From a bacterium (GTDB lineage: Bacteria; UBP6; JAFGXH01), in assembly GCA_027064085.1 (NCBI GenBank), contig JAMOQH010000150.1:1-7320 (forward strand): 7,320 nucleotides of DNA, read 5' to 3'. Of this stretch, positions 378-7,320 are shown in pieces (the first letter of the stretch is position 1; each line of letters opens with the position of its first letter). The notes under the pieces are model-generated. The model had not been told where the DNA came from. It saw nothing but the letters and a program-made list of their open reading frames with translations, and did no database searches. The position numbers were made by a program, and so were the translations under genes.

Positions 378-566
378 AAAAAAGAAATAGCTCAAGAGGA
401 TGTAAGGGACCCATTAACGATAAAAGGTATTAAATCTATTACAACAATTAGTCAAAATAGCTCGGTTGTTAGGGAATATGAGAATATAAATAAAAAATCT
501 TATAGCACATATCCTTTAATTAAATTGAAAGTATTTAATATTGAAGTTACTGTTGTTCTTTCATAA
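366..566 (+). pseudogene. Start-less ORF remnant, unknown product
   Basis: This frame is open from just after a TGA at 363-365 to a TAA at 564-566. It has no ATG, GTG or TTG before a TTG at 525, so it cannot start properly. The translation up to about 505 looks protein-like (for example KKEIAQEDVRDPLTIKGIKS followed by a Ser/Thr/Asn-rich stretch), and I do not recognise it. It lies in another frame from the leading ORF (1-297), as expected if one gene was split by an insertion whose length is not a multiple of three. The last 64 bases run antisense through the 3' end of the M42 peptidase gene and may be read-through. It could instead be a chance open frame. Confidence 0.3.
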
Positions 567-1531
567 GAATGAGAACTATCAACACCGGGGCTTACTAAAA
601 TTGTTTTAAAATCATTTCCTGCTCTTAACATAGTTGCTGCATCACTTCCATAATGAGGATAAGTATCAATTTTGTATTTAATATTGTTCATTTTTGCAAT
701 ATTTACTAGTTTCTGCTTCATTTCTGGGTGAAATGGCCCTGTAGAGTCTTTTGCGCAAATTGTAACCGAATATTCATCACTTTCTTGTTCTGGTCCCAAT
801 ACTCCATTATCAACAATAATTACTTCTTTTATTTCATCAGGAAAACTAAAATTTGCTCCAAAACCTACTTCTTCCCATACAGAAAAGAAAAAGTAGATAT
901 CTTTTTCTAGTTCTATGTTACTATTAAGTATTTCCTTAATAAGTCCAAGTAAAATTGCAACTCCCAGTTTATCATCTAAATGCCTTGATTTAACAAAACC
1001 ATTGTCTGTTTTTACAAAATTAGGATTCCAAGAAATATAATCACCAACTTCTAAACCTAATTTATCAACATCTTCTTTGGTTTTTACATATTCATCAAGC
1101 CTAATTAGTATATCTTTATAATTAAATTTTCCTTTTTCAAACTCATGACCATTTGCATGAACTGAACCGTTATCAAATAAGACCGTTCCAGTATGCTTAT
1201 TATCACTTGAATGTATAGTACAATAATTTCCTAAAACTGTTAAATTAGAATAGCCTCCAACTGGAGTAAATAAAATTTTACCATCATCTCTTATGCTTTT
1301 GACCATTGCTCCTAGTGTATCTAAATGTGATGCAAATAGAACACCGTTTTTAGATTTTCCTGATATTTTTAATAAAATACCCCCTCTGTTATATTCTTTA
1401 ATAAACAGTGTTTTATTGCTGTCTAAAACTTCAATTTCTGAGAGTAAAAATTTTTGTATTGCTTGATAGTCTCCAGATACAGAAGGAATGTTTACAAGCG
1501 TTTCTAGTGTTTTTAAAATATAATTAATCAT
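500..1531 (-). CDS. M42 family metallo-aminopeptidase (FrvX/YsdC/TET-like)
   Basis: Cytosolic two-metal exopeptidase of the glutamyl aminopeptidase/endoglucanase-M family, which trims N-terminal residues from peptides. The 343-residue length is normal and there is no signal peptide. Expected metal and catalytic residues are present in order: His69 and Asp71 in SHLDTLG, the bridging Asp186 in HLDD, the Glu220-Glu221 pair in WEEVG, Asp241 in VDNG, and His321 near the C-terminus in SSHSYERT. The PDZ-like insert domain would lie at about 75-170. It is the last gene of the purD-purN operon: its ATG overlaps the purN stop in an ATGA (1528-1531), preceded by a strong AAGGAG five bases upstream. Substrate preference cannot be read from the sequence; family members are annotated as glutamyl, leucyl or general aminopeptidases. 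Confidence 0.9.
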   Translation of the reverse strand: MINYILKTLETLVNIPSVSGDYQAIQKFLLSEIEVLDSNKTLFIKEYNRGGILLKISGKSKNGVLFASHLDTLGAMVKSIRDDGKILFTPVGGYSNLTVLGNYCTIHSSDNKHTGTVLFDNGSVHANGHEFEKGKFNYKDILIRLDEYVKTKEDVDKLGLEVGDYISWNPNFVKTDNGFVKSRHLDDKLGVAILLGLIKEILNSNIELEKDIYFFFSVWEEVGFGANFSFPDEIKEVIIVDNGVLGPEQESDEYSVTICAKDSTGPFHPEMKQKLVNIAKMNNIKYKIDTYPHYGSDAATMLRAGNDFKTILVSPGVDSSHSYERTTVTSILNTFNLIKGYVL

Positions 1532-3442: not shown

Positions 3443-3468
3443 ATTTTATACCAAAATTGGTATAAAAT
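3443..3468. promoter_or_regulatory. 26-bp near-perfect palindrome, probable operator
   Basis: ATTTTATACCAA (3443-3454) and TTGGTATAAAAT (3457-3468) are exact complements around a central AA. Such symmetry is typical of sites bound by dimeric regulators. It lies midway between the two divergent operons, 33 bp upstream of the predicted hyuA -35 box. TATAAA inside the right arm (3461-3466), with TTGCAT (3439-3444) 16 bp upstream, could form an alternative rightward promoter overlapping the operator. No regulator gene is present in the window. Confidence 0.5.
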
Positions 3469-3488: not shown

Positions 3489-3517
3489 AAAAATATAGTG
3501 TTGAAAAATATAGTGTT
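3489..3517 (+). repeat. Tandem 14-bp direct repeat in the hyuA promoter
   Basis: AAAAATATAGTGTT occurs twice exactly, at 3489-3502 and 3504-3517, with a 15-bp period. The second copy fills the first part of the spacer between the predicted -35 and -10 boxes of hyuA, and the first overlaps the -35 box. This suggests tandem sites for a transcription factor, or a slippage duplication. Confidence 0.55.
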
Positions 3518-3529
3518 TTTTGATATATT
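3501..3529 (+). promoter_or_regulatory. Predicted promoter of the hyuA-hyuB operon
   Basis: TTGAAA (3501-3506) and TATATT (3524-3529) are separated by 17 bp, giving a start near 3536 and a leader of about 18 nt before the GTG start. The layout mirrors the purD promoter. The overlap with the tandem direct repeat suggests regulation at this site. Confidence 0.5.
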
Positions 3530-3553: not shown

Positions 3554-5527
3554 GTGGAAAATAAGCAGATATTATCAATTTATGCAACATCTGATAGTGT
3601 TGGATTTATGGCTTGCTATAATGGAAAGCTAGAAGCCAAAAAAATTAGGTATTCAAATGGTGAAACAATAGAGGCAATAAAAGAAGGTGTTGAGTACTAT
3701 AAAAGAAATTTTAAATTTAAAGCAGAGAAAGTTGTTGTAGCATCTTCTATCGCAAATGATATTATAACAAATAGGAAGGGTGTTAAAACCGCATTAGTTG
3801 TAACATCTGGCTTTAAAGATTTATTGAAAATAGGGCGAAGAAGCAGAAATACTTTATATGATTTTATGCCTCAAATAAAACCTCATGTTGTTCAGAAAAA
3901 GAATATTTTTGAGGTTGAAGAAAGAGTTAATTCAAAAGGTGAAGTAGAAATAGCATTAAATAAAAAGCAATTTAAAACCATAATAAAAAATATTATTAAT
4001 AACGGGTATAGAGCAGTTGCTGTTGGTTTTATAAATAGTTTAGTAAATAATGAAAATGAAAAAGCTGCAATTTTAGCATTAAAAAAATCGGGGATACCAT
4101 ACACTCTATCTTCTGAGATTTCGACTCACTATAGAGAATATGAGCGAATTTCTACCGCTGTTTTAAATAGTTATATTTATGAGCCTGTTAAGAATTTCTT
4201 TACTGATATTAAAAACTTATTTGATGAAAATACTGAAATAAGAATAATGGAAACAAATGGAGGAGTATCTCTGTTTAGTAATTTTAGATATAAAGATGCA
4301 ATTCAAACTTTATTTTCAGGAAAAATAGCTTCATTAATTGGAGCTAAAACAATTTCAACTGAATTAAATATGCCCAAGATTATAACATTTGATATGAGTT
4401 CCTCTTCTAGTGATATTTCAATTTTTGATGATCAAATTACTTTAACTTCTCAAATGAAAGTAGATGAGTTACCGGTAAGAATACCATCTGTGCTTTTAAG
4501 AACAATAGGGCAAGGGGCATTATCTACTGTTGAAACCGTTGATAAAGGAATTAAACTAGATTTAGAGAATAAATATTTAGGAGATGAGTACAGACCCACT
4601 TTAAAAGATATTTCTATTTATTTGGGGTATTTAGACTCAACAAAAGAAGAAAGAAAGGAAGTTATTAAAAAACTTAAGGGGTATTTTAGTCATATTGATA
4701 AACTAGAATTAAATTCTTATGTTGAAGGTGTTTTTAAAATGGCTGTTGCAAAATTTTCTCGTCACATGAGAAAGTTAGCGGCTAAAAGAGGATACGATAC
4801 GAAAGAATTTAACTTATTGGCAACTGGTTCTATGGCAGGGTTATTTTCTACTTCAATTGCTGAAAGATTATCTTCTGAAGAAATTATTATTCCAAATAAA
4901 AACGGATTTTTTTCTGTTGTCGGAATGTTATATACTAATACAATAAAAGATAGCTCCAAACTGATACTTAGAAGAGTTAGGCCATCAAGACAATTCGATT
5001 TTGAAGAGTTTGATGAGTTGTTTAGTGAATTAAAAAAAGAGGTTAAAAATAAATTAATTAATGAAAAAATATTTGATGAAAATATTAAGTTTTATAATTT
5101 ACTAGATATCAGATATGAAGATGAAACATATGAAATGACTATTCCCTTTACAAGAGATTTTATTGAAAAATTTCATAAAGAACATCAAAAATTATATGGA
5201 TATTTTCTTAAAAATTCTTTATTAGAAATTGTAAGAATGAGAGTAAGAGGACTAGGGATAGAAAAAAAACCTAATCTTAGAAGAATAGAAGTAGAGGATT
5301 ATATTAAAATAGATAAACCAAAATATGAAAAAAAACAAAAAGCTATTTTTGGTGGAGAAGAATATAATATTCCAATTTATAAAAAAGAGACTCTGCCAAT
5401 AAATACTTTAATTAAAGGTCCTGCAATTATAAAAGAATATGGTTCTACAACTTTGGTTTCTCCAAAATTTGTAGCTTCTATAGATAAACATAAAAATATT
5501 ATAATTAGATATAAGGCAAAATACTAG
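3554..5527 (+). CDS. hyuA: Hydantoinase A/5-oxoprolinase-like protein with degenerate nucleotide-binding motifs
   Basis: At 657 aa from the GTG start it is near the family length. It has the three usual parts: Hydant_A N-terminal domain (about 6-185), central hydantoinase A domain (about 200-465) and C-terminal domain (about 480-655, with HKEHQKLYGY and GPAIIKEYGSTTLV). Family members are ASKHA-fold subunits that use ATP to activate cyclic amides or ketones, paired with a HyuB. Scaffold motifs remain: NRKGVKTALVVTSGF, IGRRSRNTLYDF, ISTHYREYERIS, METNGG and VPVRIP-like ELPVRIP. The active-site loops do not. SIYATSDS replaces the N-terminal DxGGTxTD, DMSSSSSD (280-287) replaces DMGGTSTD, SGKIAS replaces SGPAGG (255-260), IGQGALS replaces IGAGGGS, and GSMAGLF (425-431) replaces GGAGPLH. 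The frame is intact, so this looks like a diverged or pseudoenzyme subunit, not a decaying gene. Substrate unknown. Confidence 0.8.
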   Translation: MENKQILSIYATSDSVGFMACYNGKLEAKKIRYSNGETIEAIKEGVEYYKRNFKFKAEKVVVASSIANDIITNRKGVKTALVVTSGFKDLLKIGRRSRNTLYDFMPQIKPHVVQKKNIFEVEERVNSKGEVEIALNKKQFKTIIKNIINNGYRAVAVGFINSLVNNENEKAAILALKKSGIPYTLSSEISTHYREYERISTAVLNSYIYEPVKNFFTDIKNLFDENTEIRIMETNGGVSLFSNFRYKDAIQTLFSGKIASLIGAKTISTELNMPKIITFDMSSSSSDISIFDDQITLTSQMKVDELPVRIPSVLLRTIGQGALSTVETVDKGIKLDLENKYLGDEYRPTLKDISIYLGYLDSTKEERKEVIKKLKGYFSHIDKLELNSYVEGVFKMAVAKFSRHMRKLAAKRGYDTKEFNLLATGSMAGLFSTSIAERLSSEEIIIPNKNGFFSVVGMLYTNTIKDSSKLILRRVRPSRQFDFEEFDELFSELKKEVKNKLINEKIFDENIKFYNLLDIRYEDETYEMTIPFTRDFIEKFHKEHQKLYGYFLKNSLLEIVRMRVRGLGIEKKPNLRRIEVEDYIKIDKPKYEKKQKAIFGGEEYNIPIYKKETLPINTLIKGPAIIKEYGSTTLVSPKFVASIDKHKNIIIRYKAKY

Positions 5528-7131: not shown

Positions 7132-7320
7132 ATGATTAAAAAACAATCAAGTAAGGATAAGTCAGTGACTTATCATCATAAGAAAGAAATAACTAAAATT
7201 AATTTTATAACTAAATTATTATCAATTTTAATAAACATCAATAATATATCAGATAAGGCATATAATAATTTTTTAAAAAGAGCAAAAACAGTTTTAACCG
7301 AAGAAGAAATCAAAATATTA
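7132..7320 (+). CDS. Hypothetical third gene of the hyuA-hyuB operon (3' end outside window)
   Basis: An ATG one base after the hyuB stop opens a frame of 63 codons that continues past the window end. A GGGG within the last hyuB codons lies eight bases upstream and could serve as a weak ribosome site, so translational coupling is likely. The visible part has a polar, Lys-rich start (MIKKQSSKDKSVTYHHKKE), then an Ile/Leu/Asn-rich stretch (NFITKLLSILINI), then a Lys/Glu-rich region ending in LTEEEIKIL. The hydrophobic stretch is short and interrupted by Asn and Lys, so a membrane segment is not convincing. I do not recognise the family; it does not look like a known hydantoinase, racemase or acetone carboxylase gamma subunit start. 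Confidence 0.55.
   Translation, partial: MIKKQSSKDKSVTYHHKKEITKINFITKLLSILININNISDKAYNNFLKRAKTVLTEEEIKIL

Follow-up and report, generated by a model that had tools for sequence, protein, structure and literature searches.

The hyuA-like gene of this locus raises the question of what a HyuA protein does once its nucleotide-binding motifs have been replaced on an otherwise recognizable scaffold, and whether its partner HyuB has changed with it. In characterised relatives HyuA uses ATP to phosphorylate bicarbonate or the substrate, and HyuB finishes the reaction at a metal site, the two being linked by a tunnel (PMC8453981), and the ATP motifs of HyuA have been called strictly conserved in the family (PMC5214803). 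The window analyzed here is the entire contig C150 (7,320 bases, 27% G+C) of a metagenome-assembled, 3.65-Mb genome that is 94.7% complete, and its features are collected in Table 1. The GTG taken as the start of hyuA has GGAGA directly upstream and falls in the alignment where the relatives have their ATG, while the mechanical open reading frame begins at TTG 3539; residues of HyuA are counted from the GTG.

Table 1. Features of the window, with positions counted from its first base
Feature	Position	Strand	Remarks
purD, PurN-like formyltransferase, M42 peptidase		-	
Inverted repeat	3443..3468		perfect; arms of 12 bases around a 2-base spacer; lies between the divergent genes purD and hyuA
Sigma-70-like promoter match	3501..3529	+	ahead of hyuA; frequency not above chance
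hyuA-hyuB		+	
hyuA-like, 657 aa	3554..5527	+	GTG start; nucleotide-binding motifs replaced
Phosphate-1, residues 8-18	3575..3607	+	SIYATSDSVGF instead of GVDTGGTFTDF; catalytic Asp replaced by Tyr10
SGPAGG position, residues 255-260	4316..4333	+	SGKIAS (alignment)
Phosphate-2, residues 280-287	4391..4414	+	DMSSSSSD instead of DMGGTSTD (alignment)
GAGGGS and adenosine (PGPxCYG) loop, residues 319-350	4508..4603	+	replaced, shortened
GGAGPLH position, residues 424-431	4823..4846	+	TGSMAGLF (GGAGPLH to GSMAGLF)
hyuB-like, 522 aa	5562..7130	+	begins 34 bases after hyuA

By domains and by fold, the hyuA product is a HyuA over its full length, as the preliminary description had proposed. Its matches to the Pfam models Hydantoinase_A (113.7 bits), Hydant_A_N (84.9 bits) and Hydant_A_C (28.3 bits) are all above cut-off, and its structural model (pLDDT 88.2) matches CapA (6yra_A) with a Z score of 40.3 over 641 aligned residues, and 5f7r with a Z score of 11.4; in the model the ASKHA (actin/sugar-kinase) fold is intact. 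Judged by motifs, the same protein has neither the phosphate-1 DxGGTxTD, the phosphate-2 DxGGT nor the adenosine GxxPGP signature.

We read the motifs from a 40-row alignment, in which the replacements previously described in both phosphate loops and in the SGPAGG, GAGGGS and GGAGPLH segments were all recovered. Position 10 is Tyr in the window and in both of its relatives, and Asp in each of the 36 remaining rows that are not gapped at this position; the alignment of phosphate-1 to CapA is based on columns shared with homologues, together with the collinear match of the folds. Phosphate-2 keeps D280 and D287 and has lost the Gly-Gly-Thr between them, the relatives reading DMRYNSTD and DMRYDSTD. 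GAGGGS reads GQGALS, and the SAGA-PGP-CYG loop, earlier described as reduced, is deleted ahead of the Leu-Gly-Tyr-Leu at 357-360, with residues 326-344 predicted to be disordered (pLDDT <50). Lys30 is retained. Among columns at least 90% conserved in other HyuAs, those retained by all three family members number 9 of 49 within the nucleotide motifs and 38 of 65 outside them (Fisher p = 2e-5); as judged from the aligned sequences, the loss exceeds general divergence and is concentrated in the motifs. Glycine makes up 5.2% of the window HyuA versus 8.0-12.9% in relatives. Two observations that would have spoken against altered nucleotide binding were looked for and neither was made: residues 5-655 run collinear with CapA, and the chain has no Gly-rich loop elsewhere, no PGP and no DxGGT, and characterised ATP-using members keep the canonical motifs rather than sharing the Ser-rich one (PMC5214803, PMC8453981).

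To place the motif loss among other HyuA proteins, we compared the window with two genomes of the same uncultured bacterial family, JAFGXH010000041.1 (G001) and DYRY01000080.1 (G002), whose HyuA orthologues lack the same motifs. The window HyuA is 35-36% identical to these two, which are 77% identical to each other, and the three proteins, from two genera, form one clade with support of 100. All three genomes are metagenome assemblies, and the clade is based on these three sequences. Each genome has this hyuAB pair only, no second hyuA or hyuB being found in any of the three; none of them yielded a 16S rRNA gene. Among 106 HyuA sequences surveyed from sampled genomes, only the three family members combine the loss of phosphate-1, of phosphate-2 and of the adenosine loop; the other flagged sequences are truncated or split ones that keep GGT or PGP, and one HyuA (L074 in G348) with DIGGAFTD and DGGSTTTK, whose two phosphate loops are altered more mildly and which was set aside as not being a loss. 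Nine further close HyuA sequences are canonical. Clade members beyond the family were found neither in a domain-wide sample of 386 genomes nor in two extra samples near the HyuB-nearest lineages (overlapping the 386), a contig scan with two peptide patterns returned only the two known relatives, and the other searched genomes of the phylum gave no HyuA match. The hyuAB genes of DYRY01000080.1 (L035), placed in the window's family, are very AT-rich, with a third-codon G+C of ~17%; the record is titled Anaeromyxobacter dehalogenans, a title that looks wrong.

The preliminary description was correct on HyuA and understated the case, and it missed an altered metal site in the adjacent HyuB. The hyuB product is a HyuB by Pfam and by fold (Hydantoinase_B, 518.8 bits; model pLDDT 87.6; 6yra_B, the CapB subunit, Z 37.3). 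The metal ligands of CapB are Asp41, His99, Asp102 and His124, and alanine mutants of any of the four gave <0.015% conversion (PMC8453981). Mapped by pairwise alignment, these positions are T38, D95, N98 and S123 in the window and A, H, N and H in both relatives, so that all three proteins have lost both ligand aspartates, and the window lineage alone has lost the two histidines as well. The other aligned HyuB sequences have an intact metal tetrad, with the rare exception of L024 (Asn at the third position). In that HyuB, whose genome (G075) contains no fewer than 12 HyuA-like matches, the third ligand reads HLNN (Asp to Asn). A further 54 positions of HyuB are invariant within the family and rare elsewhere, and 29 of these belong to the 145 residues (of 522) that make up the Greek-key domain with the metal site (p = 2e-5), an enrichment suggesting that the HyuB pocket did not simply drift but was rebuilt and then fixed. 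A pocket rebuilt in this way would be compatible with ligand binding as well as with a new reaction.

The caprolactamase CapAB (PDB 6YRA), from Pseudomonas jessenii, is among the closest known systems and resembles the pair in both subunits, in full-length fold and in the adjacency of the genes, at 20% (CapA) and 24% (CapB) identity. However, CapA has DAGGTFTDF, DMGGT and GxxPGP where the window HyuA keeps the phosphate-2 aspartates only, and the D41-H99-D102-H124 metal site of CapB is replaced in the window HyuB; the NCBIfam equivalog models for CapAB, NF050156 and NF050157, scored 215 and 192.5 bits, below their cut-off of 1000. In CapA itself, D11A and D295A gave 0.05% and 0.4% conversion in 17-19 h (PMC8453981). 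The best sequence match of solved structure for both subunits is N-methylhydantoinase (PDB 9H03 and the 7HK5 series; 1e-43 and 1.4e-62), which unlike the pair is one fused chain of ~1,280 residues and, within the part that aligns, retains the phosphate-2 DxGGT loop. Acetophenone and acetone carboxylases (PDB 5L9W, 5SVB) have HyuA-like and HyuB-like subunits with the same folds but carry extra subunits; the ATP motifs are conserved in both HyuA-like subunits of acetophenone carboxylase (PMC5214803), and the HyuB-like subunit of these carboxylases keeps the metal site (PMC8453981). Equivalog scores for acetophenone carboxylase were far below cut-off for HyuA (ApcC, 74.6 of 1500; ApcA, 48.7 of 1250) and for HyuB (ApcD, 48.6 of 1500). 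In the literature library searched, there was no paper on a pseudoenzyme among hydantoinase or ASKHA proteins. A precedent, for the mechanism only, is offered by ROK repressors and other non-kinase ASKHA proteins, represented among the fold matches by 5f7r, in which a kinase fold has been reused for ligand sensing; ROK repressors are a different family and have a DNA-binding domain.

Because the ATP site and the metal site are both replaced, the pair is probably related to a well-known enzyme class but either non-catalytic or turned to another purpose. Our preferred reading, to which we assign a probability of roughly 0.6, is that in this family-specific HyuAB complex the ATP-dependent amidohydrolase chemistry is gone and the pair persists as a pseudoenzyme that binds a ligand or serves as a scaffold; catalytic residues are gone, and fold and selection are kept. 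The two genes would encode the two subunits of a complex of the caprolactamase/5-oxoprolinase type from which the ATP-dependent substrate-phosphorylating site (HyuA) and the metal-bound hydrolytic site (HyuB) have apparently disappeared. HyuA and HyuB may still assemble, without ATP-dependent ring opening, and would most likely bind a small molecule in the retained HyuB pocket or in the HyuA cleft, or hold partner proteins. The loss probably proceeded in steps, with the change of Asp10 to Tyr in HyuA and of the ligand aspartates at HyuB positions 38 and 98, common to all three genomes, coming first, and the loss of both HyuB histidines in the window lineage following later. It is the loss of metal ligands in HyuB that makes a pseudoenzyme pair likelier than an odd kinase, although D280, D287 and Lys30 of HyuA and the two histidines of the relatives' HyuB are kept, and residual nucleotide or metal binding is therefore possible.

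The concentration of 29 of the 54 family-specific HyuB residues in the metal-site domain counts against a pseudoenzyme, since it would also fit a rebuilt active site. The pair could then be a new, non-kinase enzyme with other chemistry at the HyuB pocket (for example at the family-specific N98, E126, E149, K170, N266 and H318) and with HyuA as structural partner only. HyuB is also far better conserved in the family (61% identity) than HyuA (36%); in canonical pairs whose HyuB proteins are about as similar, HyuA identity is 43-59%. However, the differing ligand positions (T-D-N-S in the window against A-H-N-H in the relatives) fit relaxed constraint better, and we recognised no new catalytic or metal-site pattern in the HyuB sequences. 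We hold a new enzyme to be a tentative second choice, and consider it somewhat doubtful that ATP- and metal-dependent ring opening was exchanged for an ATP-independent reaction at the rebuilt pocket, with HyuA structural.

An enzyme that is still ATP-dependent and binds the nucleotide by unusual loops would account for the retained D280, D287 and Lys30 and for the intact ASKHA fold, but is improbable given a Tyr for the phosphate-1 Asp in all three proteins, Arg-Tyr or Ser-Ser in place of the phosphate-2 glycines, a deleted adenosine loop and the accompanying loss of HyuB ligands. Decay after loss of function, which would make the genes incipient pseudogenes, finds some support in the unusually fast divergence of HyuA (35-36% family identity) and its dN/dS of ~0.5 against the window; ratios against the window (0.2-0.5) are unreliable, as dS there is >1.1 and near saturation. 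Between the two relatives, however, dN/dS is 0.155 for hyuA (dS 0.93) and 0.085 for hyuB (dS 0.82), i.e., 0.16 and 0.09, which indicates protein-coding genes under constraint, and the open reading frames are full-length and in the same adjacent order in three genomes. With purifying selection acting on both genes, the loss of motifs is not decay, and we regard pseudogenes as very unlikely. The gene is intact, as first described, and the proposal of a subfamily that does not bind ATP in the usual way gains support from a loss that is common to three genomes and one clade of intact genes under purifying selection.

In one lineage, two separate active sites that work together across the subunits of a heteromer have both been lost, although selection on the proteins has continued, and the pair is thereby a natural test of the role of HyuAB apart from catalysis; the result for HyuB strengthens that for HyuA. 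An annotation as hydantoinase or 5-oxoprolinase from domain matches would be wrong here, even with hyuB scoring 519 bits.

The hyuA-hyuB order is kept in 3/3 family genomes, and the surroundings are not: the upstream neighbour is purD in the window and, judged by eye, typA-like in G001 and deaminase-like in G002, and hyuB is followed by a large CARDB-domain lipoprotein gene in both relatives and by another open reading frame in the window. Since the flanking genes differ among the three genomes, no partner gene is indicated. The lipoprotein of the relatives has CARDB/PPC domains and ~1,780 residues (L032, 5753-11107; L033, 6928-12273). In the window, where the contig ends 190 bases past hyuB, the open reading frame directly after hyuB (7132-7320) starts MIKKQSSKDKSV, runs off the contig and differs from that lipoprotein. 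The inverted repeat at 3443-3468, ATTTTATACCAA-AA-TTGGTATAAAAT, is a possible candidate operator. Its core has one further copy in the genome (C182:35166), against a control count of 1, so that the repeat may be either chance or an operator, and a palindrome regulon was rejected on that single other match. The M42 peptidase (500-1531, minus strand), beside purN and purD, has as its nearest model TIGR03106 of the osmoprotectant NAGGN system, at 269 of 398 bits.
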